Source: a virus. From it: DNA of 31,596 nucleotides. A program made the position numbers and the translations under genes. The stretch covers positions 1 through 31,596 of IMG/VR virus record IMGVR_UViG_3300008740_000380; one strand, 5' to 3'. Position 1 is the first letter of the stretch. Each line of letters starts with the position of its first letter. The notes under the pieces were generated by a model that saw only the letters and a program-made list of their open reading frames with translations, did not search any database and was not told the origin of the DNA. Below, one piece after another: positions 1,699-20,049 of this stretch.

Positions 1699-2376
1699 AT
1701 GATAAGTATTTTTGGGGATAGTTATGTTGATCCCTGTAGTGGTGATTTAGATCAAAGTAAAAGATGGTATAATAATCTTGGCGAACCAACTTTCGTTTAC
1801 GGATTAGCAGGATCAAGTATAGATTGGTCCTTAGATATTTTTATTAGTGGTCATGTGGAAAGATCCGGCAAAATAATTTTTATAGAATCCATACCGCGTC
1901 GATTTCATTTTGAATTTTTAAGAACACCTAAACATGACGCTGCTGTAATGTGGGAGAATGATTGGGAAAATGATAAGTGGCTTTCAGAACCTGGAATGGA
2001 ATATGTTCATCGTCATAAAAGGTTCGTTGAGTATTTTCATAAAAATTATAAAGACTATCATAAAGCAACAAAAGCAAGATGCGTATTAAAAGCGTTATCC
2101 GATCAATATGAAAAAGTATTATATTTTTCAACCTCTCGAAATGATAATCTTTATAGATCTCCTCACATACAATCAAATAATAATTTTGAAATAGCTGATG
2201 TAATGTTAATGGATATTTCCAGAGGTGAAATTAAAAGCGACTATGATCCAGAGTTTAGAGATTCAAGATCGAATCATTTTAGTGAAACAAATCATATAAT
2301 TTTTTCTTCATATATAAAGAGAAAGTTTAATAATGAAAGTACTGAAGATATAATATTTGAAAAAAATTTGATATGA
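1699..2376 (+). CDS. SGNH/GDSL-hydrolase-like protein
   Basis: A 225-aa protein starting with a beta strand and a GDS motif (ISIFGDSYVD, residues 2-11), as in block I of SGNH/GDSL esterases and lipases. A C-terminal DSRSNHFSETNH segment could supply the catalytic Asp/His pair of block V (DxxH). If active it would hydrolyse an ester, for example an acetyl group on a sugar. The family is inferred from these short motifs and the general alternation of strands and helices; the middle region is divergent. The ATG has no Shine-Dalgarno sequence. Its stop overlaps the start of the carbamoyltransferase by 4 nt, indicating translational coupling and a possibly shared substrate. Confidence 0.5.
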   Translation: MISIFGDSYVDPCSGDLDQSKRWYNNLGEPTFVYGLAGSSIDWSLDIFISGHVERSGKIIFIESIPRRFHFEFLRTPKHDAAVMWENDWENDKWLSEPGMEYVHRHKRFVEYFHKNYKDYHKATKARCVLKALSDQYEKVLYFSTSRNDNLYRSPHIQSNNNFEIADVMLMDISRGEIKSDYDPEFRDSRSNHFSETNHIIFSSYIKRKFNNESTEDIIFEKNLI

Positions 2377-3830
2377 TTTATTGGGGGATAACTTGCGGTT
2401 CGCATGATGGTGCTGTATCGGTATTTAATAATAGTGATTTATTATTTGCAACCGATGCAGAAAGATTTTCTAGAAAAAAGAACGATCCAGAAATTCCCGA
2501 AAATCTTTTTAGTTATATTTTTGAAGAATATGGAAAACCATCTAAAATTTATTTTTATGAAAATCCATATGTGAAGATGTCTCGACGTTGGTACGCGGGA
2601 CAAAAGCCAGCCTGGAAACCACCTAAGCTTCCCCATTTTTATTCTGGAAGAGATTTTAAAGTTCATGATTATAAATTGCATTATACATCTCATCATTTAT
2701 CACATGCGGCTTATGGATATTATACTTCACCGTTTGATAATGCTATGGTTTTGGTTATCGATGCAATTGGGGAATGGGAAACCTTAACTGTATGGAAAGC
2801 TAAAGGTAAAAAGTTAAAGAAGTTATGGAATTGGAAATATCCTAAATCTTTAGGTTTAATGTATTCCGCATTAACACAATATGCTGGATGGAAACCTAAT
2901 GAAGAAGAATATATTATGATGGGTGCGGCAGCTCGCCAGACACATCCATATGAACCAGTTTATAATAGAATATTGAATATTTGGGAAGAAGGAACATCCT
3001 GGCATAAAGGTTTAAATAAAGTATTAGCCTGGAAAGAAAGACCAGAAGTTCATCCTGAAGATGTCCCTACTGCAGCTCAAGCAGCATATGAAAAACTTTT
3101 TAAAGAGATAGTAATAAATGTTAGTAAACATAAAGCTAATGAATCCGGTAACATTGTTTTTGTTGGAGGCTGTGCGTTAAATGTTAGTGCCAATAGATTT
3201 CTCAGCGATAGTTTTACTCGCGTCCATATTCCTCCTAATCCAGGCGACTCTGGTTCTGCTGTGGGATGCATTCTTGCAAGGACAAGAAGGCATATTGATC
3301 CTACTCCTTATCTTGGTTATGACATACAAGGACCATTTCCGTTCCAAGAAGTAATAGATGAATTAATGATTAAAAGAATAGCAGGGGTTGCTAATGGTAG
3401 ATGTGAATTTGGACCGAGAGCATTAGGCAATAGAACTTTGTTTGGAGATCCTAGAGATCCCAAAATAAAAGATAAAATTAATCAAGTAAAGGGTAGAGAA
3501 CCGTTTAGGCCATTTGCCCCAATGATATTAGAAGAAGATGTTTCAAAATATTTTAATGGTGGGTTCTTTTCACCATATATGAGTTGCGCGCTTCAAGCAA
3601 CACAAGAATTTAGAAATAATTATCCAGGTGTTGTTCATTTAGATGGAACTTCCAGATTACAAGTTGTTAAAGAAGATCCGCATAGAACATTATTACAAAT
3701 TTGGAAAGATATTACAAAATGTCCAGTGTTATTAAATACATCTTTAAATGTTAAAGGAGAACCGATTGTCAACACCAGAAAAGATGCCGAAGCTTTCACT
3801 GCGAAAACGGGTGTCAACGTATATTCTTAA
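2373..3830 (+). CDS. Carbamoyltransferase, NodU/CmcH/TobZ family
   Basis: A 485-aa protein with both domains of O-carbamoyltransferases. The N-terminal Kae1-like ASKHA domain has GITCGSHDGA (H11, D12), the metal-binding HHLSH at 107-111, VIDAIGEWET near 128-137, and GGCALN. The C-terminal YrdC-like domain has the typical CEFGPRALGNR segment and a PFRPFAP motif. These enzymes move a carbamoyl group from carbamoyl phosphate through carbamoyl-AMP onto a hydroxyl, such as a sugar in Nod factors, antibiotics or O-antigens. In some phages they act on hydroxymethylated DNA bases. Length is normal for phage forms and the C-terminus looks intact. No Shine-Dalgarno sequence is visible; the start overlaps the preceding SGNH-like gene by 4 nt. 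A glycan or a modified nucleotide are both possible substrates. Confidence 0.9.
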   Translation: MIYWGITCGSHDGAVSVFNNSDLLFATDAERFSRKKNDPEIPENLFSYIFEEYGKPSKIYFYENPYVKMSRRWYAGQKPAWKPPKLPHFYSGRDFKVHDYKLHYTSHHLSHAAYGYYTSPFDNAMVLVIDAIGEWETLTVWKAKGKKLKKLWNWKYPKSLGLMYSALTQYAGWKPNEEEYIMMGAAARQTHPYEPVYNRILNIWEEGTSWHKGLNKVLAWKERPEVHPEDVPTAAQAAYEKLFKEIVINVSKHKANESGNIVFVGGCALNVSANRFLSDSFTRVHIPPNPGDSGSAVGCILARTRRHIDPTPYLGYDIQGPFPFQEVIDELMIKRIAGVANGRCEFGPRALGNRTLFGDPRDPKIKDKINQVKGREPFRPFAPMILEEDVSKYFNGGFFSPYMSCALQATQEFRNNYPGVVHLDGTSRLQVVKEDPHRTLLQIWKDITKCPVLLNTSLNVKGEPIVNTRKDAEAFTAKTGVNVYS

Positions 3831-5824: not shown

Positions 5825-6262
5825 ATGGAATTTAATAACCCAGTGTTTCAGACAATATTAGGATTAGTGATATTTTATATTGGTCTTAAAATGTTTTCTG
5901 GTGGAATGAAGTCAATGGGAAAATTAGAACATTTAGAATATTTTATACATAATCCCTATTGGATGTTTTTTGGAGCAATTGGTTGTACTCTTCTTTGGCA
6001 ATCAAGTTCTCTCTCAACAACCGCGATAATCGGATTAGTTGCTTCAGGTGCTTTACCACTACCTTCTGCAATCGCAGCAGTGCTCGGTGCAAATATAGGA
6101 ACAACAGGAACTATATGGTTAGCTGGTATAATGGTTTCTGATGGTATGCCACAGGGAATAACGAAACAAATAGCACTAGTGCATACAGGAGTAAATGCAG
6201 CAATGGCAATTGCTTTACTTCCATTTTGTCAAGTCATAGCAAGGTTTGTGTCAAAATTTTAA
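5825..6262 (+). CDS. Na/Pi-cotransporter-like membrane protein, single repeat
   Basis: A 145-aa membrane protein with one PNaS-type repeat (Na/phosphate cotransporter family, as in NptA and YjbB). It has the QSSS motif at residues 59-62 and GANIGTT at 88-94, with hydrophobic segments at about 9-26, 47-70, 78-103 and 117-140. Full-length members have two inverted copies of this unit and are at least twice as long, so a functional transporter would need to dimerise or pair with a host subunit. The start at 5825 is chosen because AAGGAGG at 5814-5820 lies 4 nt upstream; the ATG at 5822 is too close, and the longer frame from 5765 overlaps the previous gene. It would sit in the host inner membrane and could raise phosphate uptake during infection. 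It faces the convergent tRNA gene. Confidence 0.75.
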   Translation: MEFNNPVFQTILGLVIFYIGLKMFSGGMKSMGKLEHLEYFIHNPYWMFFGAIGCTLLWQSSSLSTTAIIGLVASGALPLPSAIAAVLGANIGTTGTIWLAGIMVSDGMPQGITKQIALVHTGVNAAMAIALLPFCQVIARFVSKF

Positions 6263-6286
6263 ATTTATAAATATAAGTTTACAAAA

Positions 6287-6396
6287 TGGCTCTGGGGGTT
6301 GGATTCGAACCAACACATCTTTGATCTAGATTTGATCGATCAATCAAAGATAATACGCAAACAACGTACCGCGTCTTCCTGTTTCGCCACCCCAGA
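6287..6396 (-). tRNA. Unusual class II-shaped tRNA with GUU (Asn) anticodon and long variable arm
   Basis: Read on the minus strand, the gene folds as a cloverleaf of 110 nt with an encoded CCA (6289-6287). The acceptor stem is TCTGGGG/CCCCAGA with discriminator G. The D-arm has a 3-bp GCG/CGC stem and loop AAACAGGAAGA, which looks like tRNA-Leu. The anticodon stem is GTACG/CGTAT with loop TTGTTTG and anticodon GTT at 6362-6360. The T-arm is GTTGG/CCAAC with loop TTCGAAT. The 38-nt variable region (6352-6315) contains a perfect 9-bp stem, ATCTTTGAT/ATCAAAGAT, with a 17-nt loop. U1-A72 and G73 match what I remember of bacterial tRNA-Asn, but a long variable arm is not found in tRNA-Asn, and position 37 is U where a purine is expected. 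It lies 18 nt downstream of the synthetase-like gene on the same strand. Confidence 0.85.
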
Positions 6397-6414
6397 GTAA
6401 ATCCATCCCTCTGT

Positions 6415-7263
6415 TTAATTGTTCAATGCACTGATGAGTCTGGTTAGTCCTATTCCACCACCGTATCTTGGAAAAAAATCTAAATTTAAAAATTCTTCCA
6501 ATTCTTTTTCTACTCTCTCTTCGCCAAATAATTTAAATAATAATTTAGCATATCCTCCGTCAGAAATAGTGTAGAATAGTTCTCTCATTTCCTCTACATC
6601 GGCAGATCTTTCTGCAGATCCAATTGTTTCCATTCCTCCTATAATAACATCACATTTGTTAGCTACATTGCCTTCTTTTTTCATATTCCAAAAGGGGGAT
6701 GTGGAATAAGGAAATCGAGTTATAAATCCTACTCCGGTGGGATGTGAATCAGATATCATCTGTTCGTGCTCGTGGTCTAATTCTTCGCAATTAAATTCTG
6801 AACACCACTGGCGATAATCCTTTTCAGGAAACGGTCCAGCAATGCCCCCGACTTCTCCTATCAAACCCAAATGCTTAATCAGATCTCTTTCCATTTGTAA
6901 CAAGTCTCGAAAATTACCTGGTGCTTCAAATTCAAACATAGGAAAGATGACTTCGTGTCTTCCTTCAACTATATTTGGTTCTTGTCTATAAGATGTTGAA
7001 ACACAGAAACAACCCGGTAGATCTGGATTGTTGAGTAATTCATATTCGAGCCACATCTGACCAGTTTGAGGAAGTGGCCATATGATATCATTATATGTGT
7101 ACGTTGCGACGGTTGTGGGATCTTCGCAAGCAGCTAATATGGATAATCTGTTTTGGGTATGAACTTCGAGAAAACCTCGGGAATGAAAAAAATCACGGAG
7201 ACTAACGACGACATTGTCAAAATCAGTCGGTGTGATTAGACTAGTCAGGTTGCTCCTTTCCAT
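6415..7263 (-). CDS. Class II aminoacyl-tRNA-synthetase-like protein (AsnRS/AspRS catalytic core only)
   Basis: A 282-aa protein covering only the catalytic core of the AspRS/AsnRS/LysRS group. LPQTGQM at 64-70 corresponds to the PQSPQ segment. Motif 2 is SYRQEP with R93, followed by GRHEVIFPMFEFE. An AsnRS-like METIGSAERS stretch lies at 211-220, and motif 3 is GGGIGLTRL with R275. Both ATP-binding arginines are present, so amino acid adenylation is likely. The N-terminal OB-fold that reads the anticodon in AsnRS (about 100 residues) is absent. Archaeal AsnRS-related asparagine synthetases have a similar size, so a metabolic role is the main alternative. The immediately downstream tRNA on the same strand favours an aminoacylation role. 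The ATG at 7263 has no clear Shine-Dalgarno sequence; an AGGAG inside the first codons leaves a later start conceivable. Confidence 0.8.
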   Translation of the reverse strand: MERSNLTSLITPTDFDNVVVSLRDFFHSRGFLEVHTQNRLSILAACEDPTTVATYTYNDIIWPLPQTGQMWLEYELLNNPDLPGCFCVSTSYRQEPNIVEGRHEVIFPMFEFEAPGNFRDLLQMERDLIKHLGLIGEVGGIAGPFPEKDYRQWCSEFNCEELDHEHEQMISDSHPTGVGFITRFPYSTSPFWNMKKEGNVANKCDVIIGGMETIGSAERSADVEEMRELFYTISDGGYAKLLFKLFGEERVEKELEEFLNLDFFPRYGGGIGLTRLISALNN

Positions 7264-7295
7264 GAAAAAGTGTTAAGTATTTTCCACAATTGGTT

Positions 7296-7303
7296 TATTT
7301 ATA
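7296..7303 (-). promoter_or_regulatory. T4-type late promoter octamer for the synthetase-like/tRNA unit
   Basis: The plus strand reads TATTTATA, so the minus strand carries a perfect TATAAATA, the T4 late promoter -10 element recognised by gp55-type sigma with gp33/gp45. It ends 33 nt before the ATG at 7263, a normal distance for a short leader. No sigma70 -35 element is evident at the right spacing. This would place the synthetase-like gene and the tRNA under late control. An 8-bp match in AT-rich DNA can occur by chance, but the position and strand fit. Confidence 0.55.
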
Positions 7304-7345
7304 AAAAAAGATCCCTAATGATTTGAGCGCTCTACCTGTATCTCA

Positions 7346-7384
7346 TTGAAATCATTGATAATCTTTTTTCAGCAATGATTTCAA
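7346..7384. repeat. Inverted repeat of the TTGAAATCATTG box (hairpin or operator)
   Basis: A perfect 12-bp inverted repeat: TTGAAATCATTG at 7346-7357 and CAATGATTTCAA at 7373-7384, with a 15-nt spacer containing a T run. The same box recurs directly at 7403-7414 next to the promoter of the 55-aa gene, and again at 10283-10294 and, shortened, at 10255-10265. It sits between the divergent synthetase-like unit and the plus-strand promoter. Recurrence at two promoters favours a protein-binding site over a simple terminator. Confidence 0.6.
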
Positions 7385-7402
7385 CACGATATATGTAACT
7401 CC

Positions 7403-7456
7403 TTGAAATCATTGATAAACAAAAGTGTTGACATTTTGGGCTAGTTGTTATATAAT
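7403..7456 (+). promoter_or_regulatory. Strong sigma70-type promoter with upstream TTGAAATCATTGAT box
   Basis: A consensus -35 TTGACA at 7428-7433 and -10 TATAAT at 7451-7456 are separated by 17 nt. The box TTGAAATCATTGATAAAC (7403-7420) lies just upstream. Transcription would start near 7463, giving a leader of about 40 nt before the 55-aa gene at 7505, which carries a GAGAGAG ribosome binding site. The promoter is nearly identical to the one at 10283-10336. Perfect sigma70 elements indicate early expression by unmodified host RNA polymerase. Confidence 0.85.
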
Positions 7457-7504
7457 ATATATAAAGAATGAGAGAATTTTCGCCAACCTTCAACGAGAGA
7501 GATT

Positions 7505-7672
7505 ATGTGTAAATTGTATGTATATTATGAAAGTTGCTTCGAGGACAAGAAGCTGTGTTGCACAGAGATCATCGTTCCATATGATGAACAGATCCAGGAT
7601 GCCATCAAACATTATAAGACAGGTGGTAGAATTGTGATCACAGAACCCGTAACCGAATTATTGAGTGTATAA
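7505..7672 (+). CDS. small protein of unknown function (55 aa) preceding the VWA gene
   Basis: A 55-aa reading frame starting MCKLYVYYESCFEDKK and ending VTELLSV. It is preceded by GAGAGAG with good spacing, the same type of site used by the AAA+ gene at 10376 (GAGAGAGG), and is the first frame after the strong promoter. Its stop TAA shares one base with the ATG of the large VWA gene (TAATG), a coupling arrangement. It has three Cys in the first 20 residues, including a CC pair, and no membrane segment. A competing frame from 7425 begins inside the promoter and has no ribosome binding site, so it was discarded. The role is unknown; it may regulate or partner the VWA/MoxR pair. Confidence 0.65.
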   Translation: MCKLYVYYESCFEDKKLCCTEIIVPYDEQIQDAIKHYKTGGRIVITEPVTELLSV

Positions 7673-10236
7673 TGTACGATCAACTGAAAGAACAAAAAAG
7701 TATTTTAGCAAGACTAATGGCATCGGAGAACATTTCTGTTCGCCACGCTAAAGTTCCTACCGCAGGATTCAATCCAACAACCAGAACATTGGTTTTACCA
7801 ATTCTCAAAGAGATGGAAGGTGATGTCTATGACTTATTCGTTTGTCACGAAGTAGGACATGCTTTATATACACCATCTCAAGGTTGGCATAGCGTCATCG
7901 AGAAGAAAGGTCCTAACTATAAAGGATTTTTGAATATCGTAGAAGATGCGAGGATTGAAAAATTAATCAAAAGAAAATTCGCAGGCGCTGCAAAAGCAAT
8001 GCACAAGGGATATAAAATATTGGTTCACGATAGAGATTTTTTCGGACTCAAGCAATATAATATTGATATCGATTCTGCATCGCTCATCGATAAACTTAAT
8101 ATCCATTTCAAAGGCGGACCTTTGGAGAATGTTAAATTCACTGAAGATGAAAAACCATTTATTGAGAAAATGGAAAAGCTGGAAACATGGGAAGATGTTG
8201 AAGAGCTGACTGAAGAACTTTGGAAATATGCTGAAGAGAACGAAGAAGATCAAATGACATGTACCGACGATATGTCAATGGAAGAATCGATCGAATATGA
8301 AGATGATGACGATGACGATGAAGAAGAGTGGGAAGATTTTCAAGATTCATATGATCGAGAATCCGATAATGATTGTGATGCTCCGGTTGATAAATGTGAT
8401 AATTCAGATCAACCAGAAAATAATACAGATGGAAATGATGAAGGTGGTTCATCTGAAGAAGAACAAGAAAAAGAGAATAGCGAAGGTGAAACAAAAGCTG
8501 AAGATTCTTCTGAGGGAAAAGAAGAAGAAAGTAAATCTGAAGGAGGTACAAGTTCAGGTGGAGGATATGATCAATGGTATGAAGATAATGCTTGGAAATC
8601 CGGCAGAGAACCAAGATCGATAACCGATCAACACTTTCGTGAAAAAGAAGAAGAGTTAGTTCACGAAGACGCACTGGATTTAAAATATTATAATTCTCCG
8701 AAAATTAATTTGAAACATGTAGGACCAGACGGCAGACCTTTAATCATAGGTTACAAAGAGCTTTTGAAAAGAACACAGAGTGCCTTAGATGCGCGCGAAA
8801 AACACTTAGTAGAAAGTAAGTTGACTTCCTTAGATTGGGAGAGAGAAAGTTCTGTTATGTTCGGATATGCGAAAGAATATTTGAAATATGTTGATAAAGA
8901 AAATAAGCCAGTTGTTAATTATCTCGTTAAAGAATTTGAGATGAAAAAGAAAGCGGCTGAATATAAAAGATCTGCGACAGCAAATTCAGGTGTTATATCA
9001 CTTTCAGATATTCACAAGTACAAATATTCTGATAATATATTTAAAAAGATTACTATTGTTCCCGAAGGAAAAAATCACGGACTTTATTTTTTGATGGATT
9101 GGTCAGGTTCAATGAGTGAAAAAATAATGCCGACCTTAGTTCAGTTATTTCAATTAATAGATTTTTGTAGGAAGTGTAACATTTCTCATGAAGCATATGC
9201 TTTCGTTGATTATAGTTATGATGAACAGGGACATTCATTAACTGAAGAAGGGACCTTCGGTTTTCCTTTCAAACCAGAAGCTAATTCATTAGCAGTAGGA
9301 GATATTGCAACACAATTGGTTGAAATATTTTCACATAAAATGACTGCAAAGGAATTTAATGCTCAACGTGAATATCTTCTTTTATCGATCTTACGATGCG
9401 ATAGAGATTTCACTGGTGCGCCTTGGTTAGATGAGAAAAAAGAAAGAGCTCATTGGAGAAACCAAATGAATGGTAACACCAGAGCTAGAGTTCCAAAAGA
9501 TACAATTCCATATTTAATTTATAAATCTTGGGGTCAAGAGAAGAAGTGTCAAACTAATTGGGAATGGAATTCAATAGGACGATTTGTTAAGTTCCCATTA
9601 GAAAGACTTTGTGGAACTCCTTTGAATGATGCGATCTTGGTCAGCACAGAAAATGTTAAAAGATTTAAAAGAGAAAATAATCTTGACATAGTTAATACAA
9701 TTATTCTTTCAGATGGAGAATCAAATTCATCTCATAGATTTTATTCTGAAGAGAAAATGGCTGAAGCAGAAAAGACCGGTAACATGAAGGACATCACTGA
9801 AATGATAAGTTCAAGAGAATGTAAAATCAAATTAGTGGACAGAGAAACAAAGGATGTTTTTGAATGGACTGCTGTTCATGGAATGAGACAGACAAAAAAC
9901 TTTCTTGATTATTTTAAAGCAAAAACAGGTTCGAATGTTATAGGATTCTTCCTTACATCTTCAGCTGATGACGCTGGACGAGTTGTCGGTTGGCATGATT
10001 GGTCTACTGCAAAAGCAGAATATAATAGACTTGGTTATTTGATTAGGCAAGATCATGGTTACGATGAGCTCTATGTGATCAAATCTCATAGTTCTGTTCC
10101 TCTGGAAGATGAGATCAAAGTGGATACTGATAAGAAAAATACAACCGCGACGTTAGCAAAGGCATTCAAGAATTTCCAAAAAGGCAAATTGGAAAAGAGA
10201 ATAATGTTGCAAAGCTTCGCAGAAAAGGTTGCATAA
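7672..10236 (+). CDS. CobT-like VWA-domain protein with N-terminal HExxH metallopeptidase-like region
   Basis: An 854-aa protein in three parts. The N-terminus has FVCHEVGHAL (H59, E60, H63), a zinc HExxH motif, with GFLNIVEDARIEKL about 30 residues later supplying a likely glutamate ligand. Residues about 195-300 are a highly acidic, low-complexity linker of Asp, Glu, Ser and Gly. The C-terminal half is a von Willebrand factor A domain whose MIDAS motif is DWSGSMS (D476, S478, S480). This organisation resembles the CobT subunit of cobaltochelatase and the VWA partners of MoxR AAA+ ATPases. With the CobS-like ATPase encoded downstream it probably forms a metal-dependent remodelling or proteolytic machine. 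No cobalamin genes are present, so a chelatase role is not assumed. A sigma70 promoter upstream implies early expression. Confidence 0.8.
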   Translation: MYDQLKEQKSILARLMASENISVRHAKVPTAGFNPTTRTLVLPILKEMEGDVYDLFVCHEVGHALYTPSQGWHSVIEKKGPNYKGFLNIVEDARIEKLIKRKFAGAAKAMHKGYKILVHDRDFFGLKQYNIDIDSASLIDKLNIHFKGGPLENVKFTEDEKPFIEKMEKLETWEDVEELTEELWKYAEENEEDQMTCTDDMSMEESIEYEDDDDDDEEEWEDFQDSYDRESDNDCDAPVDKCDNSDQPENNTDGNDEGGSSEEEQEKENSEGETKAEDSSEGKEEESKSEGGTSSGGGYDQWYEDNAWKSGREPRSITDQHFREKEEELVHEDALDLKYYNSPKINLKHVGPDGRPLIIGYKELLKRTQSALDAREKHLVESKLTSLDWERESSVMFGYAKEYLKYVDKENKPVVNYLVKEFEMKKKAAEYKRSATANSGVISLSDIHKYKYSDNIFKKITIVPEGKNHGLYFLMDWSGSMSEKIMPTLVQLFQLIDFCRKCNISHEAYAFVDYSYDEQGHSLTEEGTFGFPFKPEANSLAVGDIATQLVEIFSHKMTAKEFNAQREYLLLSILRCDRDFTGAPWLDEKKERAHWRNQMNGNTRARVPKDTIPYLIYKSWGQEKKCQTNWEWNSIGRFVKFPLERLCGTPLNDAILVSTENVKRFKRENNLDIVNTIILSDGESNSSHRFYSEEKMAEAEKTGNMKDITEMISSRECKIKLVDRETKDVFEWTAVHGMRQTKNFLDYFKAKTGSNVIGFFLTSSADDAGRVVGWHDWSTAKAEYNRLGYLIRQDHGYDELYVIKSHSSVPLEDEIKVDTDKKNTTATLAKAFKNFQKGKLEKRIMLQSFAEKVA

Positions 10237-19563: not shown

Positions 19564-20049
19564 ATGAAAGATATGAAAAAATTATGGTATAGCTGGCAGG
19601 ATATGTGTTCGGATGTAAATCAACTCTGTCGTGATATTGTATTGGATAATTTTAAGCCCGATGTAATTGTCGGTCTTTCCCGTGGCGGGTTAACGCCCGG
19701 TGTTATGATGTCTCATTGGTTGAAGAAACCATTTAAGCCTGTGAAAAGCGCTCTCCGTGATTTTCCTGAATGGGAAGACTATTTGCCACGGAAGACAGAT
19801 AAGAGAGTGTTAATACTAGATGATATATGTGACAGTGGTGAAACATTTGAACGTATATCAGAACATATCAAAAGGCCTCGAGAGAACATGCCTTTACAAC
19901 TTCAGTGTGACGTAAGATTTGCATCACTCTGGTGGAACAATGAGGTAAAATTTAAACCTCATTATTACGTTAGGGAAGAAGCCAAAGATGCTAATAATCT
20001 TTGGGTAGTTTTTCCATGGGAATCATGGTGGAACGCTCCTAACAATTAA
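19564..20049 (+). CDS. Phosphoribosyltransferase-like protein
   Basis: A 161-aa protein with a type I phosphoribosyltransferase fold. VIVGLSRGGLTPGVMMSHWL forms the first loop, and the PRPP-binding motif is VLILDDICDSGETF at about residues 83-96, with the usual two acidic residues and the TGxT-like loop. It resembles bacterial xanthine/hypoxanthine phosphoribosyltransferases, which join a purine base to PRPP, and related phage proteins. The C-terminal half is aromatic (SLWWNNEVKF, WVVFPWESWW). The frame extends upstream into gp43, but the ATG at 19564 is the first start outside it, after AAGG. It may salvage purines during infection. Confidence 0.8.
   Translation: MKDMKKLWYSWQDMCSDVNQLCRDIVLDNFKPDVIVGLSRGGLTPGVMMSHWLKKPFKPVKSALRDFPEWEDYLPRKTDKRVLILDDICDSGETFERISEHIKRPRENMPLQLQCDVRFASLWWNNEVKFKPHYYVREEAKDANNLWVVFPWESWWNAPNN

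Follow-up and report, generated by a model that had tools for sequence, protein, structure and literature searches.

Several described systems share features with the gene pair considered here. In the PylRS/tRNA-Pyl system, a synthetase gene is linked to an odd tRNA that decodes UAG on the ribosome, and a precedent for tRNA in metabolism is provided by glutamyl-tRNA in tetrapyrrole synthesis. Archaeal asparagine synthetase A (AS-AR; 3p8t/3rex) consists of an AsnRS core of about 290 aa without the anticodon domain. The de novo pyrimidine route via carbamoyl phosphate and carbamoyl-aspartate (CarAB-PyrB-PyrC) is regarded as near-universal. In the cultured phages P-SSM2, P-SSM5, and P-SSM7, a 'tRNA ligase' (T4-GC 194) is encoded with a tRNA-Asn directly downstream; the name is an annotation only, and the excerpted text of PMC3037559 gives no function for the protein. 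Among the matches listed for open-licence PMC literature, no paper describes such a pair or an aaRS-like pyrimidine enzyme, and none reports an assay of a family enzyme.

The DNA analysed here (the window) is an IMG/VR virus record of 31.6 kb (31,596 nt) from a marine phage, for which the closest DNA polymerases that the phage collection contains belong to Synechococcus phages (about 50% identity). A preliminary description proposed that a truncated synthetase and an odd tRNA on the minus strand may form a self-contained aminoacylation module, and the ORF list agrees that the synthetase-like gene and the tRNA (Table 1) are the sole minus-strand genes. The intergenic region upstream of both divergent genes contains a perfect match to a sigma-70 promoter (TTGACA-17-TATAAT, 12/12; window 7428–7456, plus strand). 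Two 45-nt direct repeats (80%; 7317–7361 and 7374–7418), which also form inverted repeats, lie between the divergent genes as well; the upstream regions of six relatives were compared by eye only. At window 2373–3830 (plus strand) is a carbamoyltransferase-like protein, presumably of the NodU/TobZ type. In 6 viral loci, relatives of this protein are encoded within 4 kb of the pair.

Table 1. Positions of the synthetase-like gene, the paired tRNA, and their elements in the window.
Feature	Position	Strand	Basis
AsnRS-like catalytic-core protein, 282 aa, without anticodon-binding domain	6415..7263	-	ORF call, Pfam, PHROG 29758, AlphaFold model
Motif 2 arginine R93	6985..6987	-	Invariant in alignment A3; aligned to AsnRS
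Motif 3 arginine R275, context GGGIGLTRL	6439..6441	-	Invariant in alignment A3
Spacer from stop codon to tRNA, 18 nt	6397..6414	-	Read from sequence
Paired tRNA-Asn-like RNA, 110 nt	6287..6396	-	Rfam, covariance model R1, covariation in relatives
tRNA body	6290-6396	-	Rfam RF00005 match
Anticodon GUU	6360..6362	-	tRNA parse
tRNA position 37 (U)	6359	-	tRNA parse
Long variable region, 38 nt	6315..6352	-	tRNA parse
A72 and discriminator G73; A72 pairs with U1 at 6396	6290..6291	-	Kept in relatives
Encoded CCA	6287-6289	-	Adjoins 3' end of tRNA body

The 282-aa protein was found to match tRNA-synt_2 in Pfam (PF00152; E = 6.2e-17) and PHROG 29758, a family of unknown function, and to reach none of the NCBIfam cut-offs. 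The best structural match of its AlphaFold model (pLDDT 91) is AsnRS 8h53 (Z 26.2, rmsd 2.2 over 250 residues, 25% identity), and the N-terminal OB-fold anticodon-binding domain is absent from both the protein and the model, in agreement with its earlier description as an AsnRS/AspRS-type core. The class II catalytic core has both the motif 2 and motif 3 arginines: R93 and R275, which had been pointed out as retained, are invariant across the 53 sequences of alignment A3, as are the active-site residues across its phage and cellular members. On the computed alignment, the residue roles that we take to be shared with AsnRS are those of the motif residues, of the flipping-loop Glu, and of a Leu (L72) at what is presumably the substrate-lysine position of AspRS. 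The 'tRNA ligases' of P-SSM2, P-SSM5, and P-SSM7 belong to the same family (60–61% identity).

The catalytic-core fold is thus that of the class IIb enzyme AsnRS; unlike AsnRS, the family has no OB-fold, lies far below the curated asnS cut-off (27.5 versus 342.6 bits for the window protein), and in bacteria is often encoded near pyrD/E/F. The architecture of AS-AR is also similar, but its identity in the structure alignment is 20–21%, and the window protein falls far under the curated cut-off for asparagine synthetase A (19.0 versus 389 bits). Profile matches prefer AsnRS to AsnA (best E 7e-14 versus 1.2e-5); when asparagine synthetase A models were compared with alignment A2 (31 members, namely 29 genome-contig and 2 viral), weak matches were obtained in 15 members, with a best E of 2.7e-8.

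No tRNA was called by ARAGORN in the window, probably because of the long variable region, and an Rfam search of the whole window at the gathering threshold reported nothing. With laxer filters on a short stretch, RF00005 matched at 38.3 bits, the gathering score being 29. A covariance model (R1), built from 29 tRNA relatives including the window sequence itself, scores the window tRNA at 86.7 bits, and its fold z is −2.56. Among the 29 relatives, 17 of 20 stem pairs changed on both sides, and paired cells amounted to 99.5%, versus 75.3% in shuffles, which argues that the tRNA is more than a chance fold. The 110-nt RNA with a GUU anticodon, U1-A72, G73, and a long variable arm, located 18 nt downstream of the gene, is thus upheld as a tRNA by the Rfam score and by covariation.

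Bacterial Asn identity resides in the anticodon and G73, U1-A72 directs GatCAB, and yeast tRNA-Asn is protected from AspRS by t6A37, as far as the excerpted texts of PMC9976931 and PMC4206432 go. In the two viral sets described below, the parse reached the 3' end in 113 of 119 tRNA hits, the 6 with odd or cut T arms being excluded; G73 was found in 113/113 and U1-A72 in 112/113, with CCA encoded in 83. The anticodon is equally constant: of 122 paired tRNAs, 87 are unique as judged on the first 75 nt, and these carry GUU in 86 cases and GUC in one. For ANN-decoding tRNAs, A37 is the expectation. Among the 87 unique tRNAs, 71 have U at position 37, 8 have G, 7 have A, and 1 has C; 21 have a base other than U at position 33, and only four combine U33 with A37. 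The window tRNA has U33, but U37. As a control, 65 other tRNAs called by ARAGORN at the same loci have U33 in all 65 cases and a purine at position 37 in 63, both exceptions being, by their position, misparsed paired tRNAs; ARAGORN may favour U33, but it still called 16 Asn tRNAs without it. Compared with an ordinary decoding tRNA-Asn, GUU and G73 are present, and the combination of U33 and A37 is not. Thus, the paired tRNA keeps its Asn-charging identity, mostly without decoding features, and the suggestion that it recodes Asn codons finds no support. The long variable arm, which had been put forward as a possible recognition element, must likewise be rejected as such, since the variable region ranges from 6 to 39 nt in the 86 paired tRNAs measured.

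In phages, the gene and the tRNA are tightly linked. A scan of viral records matched at least 599 stretches with at least 593 relatives, of which the best 80 were kept (set 1); a tRNA lies within 400 nt downstream in 70 of these loci, 6 are without one, and 4 contigs end too soon. A search seeded with a bacterial member provided 57 further viral contigs (set 2), drawn from 80 kept after omission of 8 already included and 15 on set 1 contigs; in 48, the tRNA adjoins the gene, and it is missing from this position in 9, including one with a tRNA 1053 nt away. Both sets together give an adjacent tRNA in 118 of 137 viral contigs, 15 without, and 4 undecidable. The median distance to the tRNA, counted from where the tblastn match to the gene ends, is 45 nt in one set and 19 nt in the other. 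In the reverse direction, one tRNA subtype was searched by exact pattern (a first pass used 80 of the 88 loci), and the gene was found directly upstream in 79 of 88, the other 9 being undecidable because fewer than 120 nt of the contig precede the tRNA. The preliminary interpretation is supported in part, namely in that the two genes form a conserved linked pair in phages. The tRNA is present in all three of P-SSM2, P-SSM5, and P-SSM7, and in none of the four fetched loci (L084, L085, L167, and L168), which belong to the 735- and 484-kb phage records and to two relatives of these; L085, used as a query for distant relatives, matched 30 stretches, none a relative. The tRNA-Asn annotated in P-SSM2 (AY939844.2) at 164094–164179 disagrees with the tRNA found here, at about 162083–162168 (L082 8814–8899), immediately after the 'tRNA ligase' gene.

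Outside viral records, a genome scan gave 125 relatives, of which 80 were kept as genome-contig loci, mostly on MAG contigs; they include Patescibacteria, Dependentiae, Chlamydia, Rickettsiales, Aureispira, Flavobacteriia, Myxococcota, and Pasteurella atlantica. A paired-type tRNA occurs in only four (L087, L109, L112, and L113), and in the other 76, the fetched stretch, which covers less than 330 nt downstream in four, contains none. Because the genes of L109 and L112, which bear the tRNA, and of L088, which does not, are identical to those of viral loci, some of the 80 loci are phage. The preliminary description had held that homologues without the tRNA, aligning with asparagine synthetases, would speak against aminoacylation: homologues without the tRNA do exist, but AsnA models match them weakly. 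Many of them instead lie near pyrD/E/F, in genomes mostly without carB, pyrB, and pyrC over cut-off. Indeed, Pfam-checked pyrD/pyrE/pyrF-type neighbours (relatives of OMPDC, PRTase, or DHODH) were found in the fetched flanks of 27/80 genome-contig loci, a raw count without a background rate in which two loci bear the tRNA and five supplied queries; the flanks of the remaining 53 contain none. In viral loci, OMPDC lies within 2.8 kb of the gene in 6/246, and nearly all, including the window, have no OMPDC or DHODH near the gene, the contigs being fragments. The PRTase of the window (19567–20046), at most a candidate OPRT, is far from the pair. In the phage collection, the phage PRTase has no relatives and the phage OMPDC has relatives in 5 records (about 27–30% identity). 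Under the standard code, an in-frame stop interrupts the homologue of a candidate division SR1 locus (L099), which is open under code 25 (TGA = Gly).

In a quick tree with a midpoint root, a single 75-row group (aLRT 96) takes in all 59 tRNA-bearing virus rows, together with 9 virus rows without the tRNA, 3 tRNA-bearing MAG rows, and 4 cell rows. The tRNA thus probably arose a single time, in phages, and disappeared again from those cells. Two of the cell rows, Pasteurella atlantica and a Rhodospirillaceae MAG, form a pair within this phage group (98), inside a 52-row branch (89), and in both, pyrF and a PRTase gene adjoin the gene. In P. atlantica NVI-9100 (positions 5959–7889 of locus L165), the phage-group gene is followed by pyrF and a PRTase gene; with no CarB, PyrB, or PyrC over cut-off in this genome, the locus suggests that pyrimidine synthesis was gained from a phage.

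A special tRNA partner in cells was also sought and rejected. R1 was run on 33 of 34 carrier genomes (G011 left out); ARAGORN reads 28 of the best 30 R1 loci as tRNA-Leu and 1 as tRNA-Ser, the remaining locus being a GUC element. A pattern for tRNAs with a GUY anticodon and a Leu-type D arm matched exactly in 3/37 carriers. The GUC tRNA-like element (G012:C259:8760-8874, that is, L333; L358–L360; and other genomes of the Aureispira order) has a Leu-type D arm, a long variable region, U1-A72, and G73, with U or G at position 37 (three loci), and forms runs of 2–5 copies in several genomes. It resembles the phage tRNA and is not tied to the gene: in the Aureispira order, the same pattern matches with 0–1 mismatch in 75/148 genomes, not all being true elements, and its presence in many non-carriers means that it is not specific to carriers.

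The genomes that carry the gene differ from controls in their pyrimidine genes. Over the curated cut-offs, 34 carrier genomes, often reduced or incomplete MAGs with possible contamination and with related genomes counted as independent, contain PyrB in 2, CarB in 3, and PyrC in 1, versus 14, 14, and 11 of 14 control genomes. Stated as losses, carB is missing at these cut-offs in 31/34 carriers, pyrB in 32/34, and pyrC in 33/34, the exceptions being G005 and G027 (PyrB), G007, G027, and G034 (CarB), and G027 (PyrC); weaker PyrB matches occur in G001 (P. atlantica), G007, and G034. At E 1e-3, any match was found for CarB in 24 carriers, PyrB in 5, and PyrC in 11. The sub-cut-off CarB matches, all at 82 bits or less, are best read as other ATP-grasp enzymes. 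Seven of the 11 PyrC carriers have best matches of 198–301 bits, near the 279-bit cut-off, and the others have 88 bits or less; since PyrC of 3/14 controls also falls under the cut-off, its loss is less clear than that of PyrB. The distribution is thus complementary to PyrB, CarB, and PyrC, apart from G005, G007, G027, and G034, and most weakly so for PyrC. Simple genome reduction is no explanation, since the carriers without CarB and PyrB include genomes as large as 7.4 Mb (G003) and 6.9 Mb (G012).

Within the Aureispira order (148 genomes, completeness filter 90), the gene scores over 450 bits in five genomes; at E 1e-3, 13 genomes match, 8 of them only partially (about 20–24 bits, in long ORFs). 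A PyrB match is missing in 10/148 genomes, comprising all five carriers and 5/143 non-carriers (Fisher p 4.6e-7, which ignores relatedness and is optimistic if the five carriers are kin). Full AsnRS is over cut-off in 15/34 carriers, which leads us to reject AsnRS replacement as a general role in cells, and replacement of asparagine synthetase is a weak candidate, with AsnB over cut-off in 19/34 carriers and AsnA in 3/34.

Comparative genomics makes a role of the family in the pyrimidine pathway probable. These stand-alone AsnRS-derived cores would act in UMP synthesis, supplying dihydroorotate or its direct precursor instead of CarAB, PyrB, and PyrC, the reaction and the substrate being our proposal. 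Given the AsnRS-like substrate site, Asn-AMP is a likely intermediate: the core would bind Asn and ATP to form Asn-AMP, which would react with CO2 or bicarbonate to give the Asn N-carboxyanhydride, and attack of the side-chain amide nitrogen on the C2 carbonyl of the latter would close the six-membered dihydroorotate ring and free the alpha-carboxylate. One enzyme would thereby convert Asn + HCO3- + ATP to dihydroorotate + AMP + PPi. According to the excerpted text of PMC6462974, an N-carboxyanhydride route from amino-acid phosphate mixed anhydrides must be considered when CO2 is present. The proposed end product is that of the CarAB-PyrB-PyrC route, to which the family is linked by its pyrD/E/F neighbours and complementary distribution; unlike that route, however, the proteins are unrelated, and the proposed substrates are Asn and bicarbonate, with no carbamoyl phosphate.

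If the family has such a role, the most probable function of the phage tRNA would be that of an Asn carrier, a proposal that we consider plausible at slightly less than even chances. The gene of the phage clade would have gained a dedicated tRNA that retains what AsnRS, or ND-AspRS with GatCAB, needs for Asn loading (GUU, G73, and U1-A72) and has mostly shed what decoding needs (A37 and partly U33). From the constant GUU and the absence of an anticodon domain in the phage protein, we infer that a host synthetase reads the tRNA; host enzymes would load it with Asn, the phage core would use the acceptor end, and the tRNA, which lacks the usual decoding features, would stay out of translation, unlike tRNA-Pyl. 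It may hand over Asn as an ester, provide free Asn in cases where GatCAB synthesises Asn on tRNA, or act otherwise. The aminoacyl-tRNA-dependent process named as one option in the preliminary description is close to this carrier role. A tRNA-dependent pyrimidine synthesis, in which the core converts Asn, on or released from the host-loaded non-decoding tRNA, with bicarbonate to dihydroorotate, is rather unlikely, and so, to the same degree, is its corollary that the phages make UMP without carbamoyl phosphate, PyrB, and PyrC, and many bacteria likewise with ordinary Asn or Asn-tRNA. Because cells use the enzyme without a linked special tRNA, the tRNA would be dispensable for the basic reaction; the 15 of 137 viral contigs and the four large-phage-type loci without an adjacent tRNA count against the preferred reading. 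As a whole, this reading, namely an AsnRS-derived dihydroorotate-making enzyme that bypasses CarAB-PyrB-PyrC with the phage tRNA as its dedicated Asn carrier, is about as likely to be right as wrong.

Two other enzymatic explanations are each improbable. A minimal AsnRS that charges its own tRNA with Asn, for phage translation or another tRNA-dependent step, would agree with the AsnRS-like fold, the intact motif residues, the tight pairing, and the Asn-type acceptor end. However, a tRNA mostly without A37 and often without U33 is a poor decoder, the retention of GUU is odd for a protein without an anticodon-binding domain, and most cellular homologues have no linked tRNA, 15/34 such genomes having a full AsnRS over cut-off; the pyrD/E/F neighbours and missing carB/pyrB would also go unexplained. 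The loss of decoding features and the bacterial pyrimidine context thus point away from the picture of a truncated synthetase that charges a tRNA for translation. A stand-alone asparagine synthetase like archaeal AsnA (Asp + NH3 + ATP -> Asn), whose product would be used by the phage tRNA-Asn, is slightly less improbable: it has the same truncated architecture and a near fold match (3rex, Z 23.4), only 3/34 carriers have AsnA, and the logic of Asn plus tRNA-Asn is simple. Against it, profiles prefer AsnRS, the window protein is far under the asparagine synthetase A cut-offs, 19/34 carriers already have AsnB over cut-off, and the absence of carB/pyrB/pyrC with pyrD/E/F retained would again be left aside.

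Explanations centred on the anticodon are less probable still. If it acted as a decoy or sponge that draws off an anticodon nuclease or host AsnRS, with the enzyme merely co-inherited, the tRNA could keep its anticodon triplet and lose its decoding features, but a decoy, which we regard as quite improbable, would not explain why the searched subtype adjoins the gene in every decidable locus (79/88, with 9 undecidable). A GluQRS-like modifier, which would load an amino acid onto queuosine of the GUU anticodon rather than onto the 3' end, is presumably analogous in its truncated core without an anticodon domain and its Q-type anticodon. Yet tRNA-guanine transglycosylase needs U33, which is missing in 21/87 paired tRNAs, and the pyrimidine neighbours would have no place, making this explanation very improbable.

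If the preferred dihydroorotate-making enzyme with its Asn-carrier tRNA is correct, it would explain how UMP is synthesised in genomes that have pyrD/E/F but no carAB, pyrB, or pyrC. Descendants of a tRNA synthetase would then replace the first three steps of pyrimidine synthesis, a synthetase having turned into a nucleotide enzyme, and the phage tRNA, with its charging identity but no decoding, would be a rare case of a dedicated metabolic tRNA.
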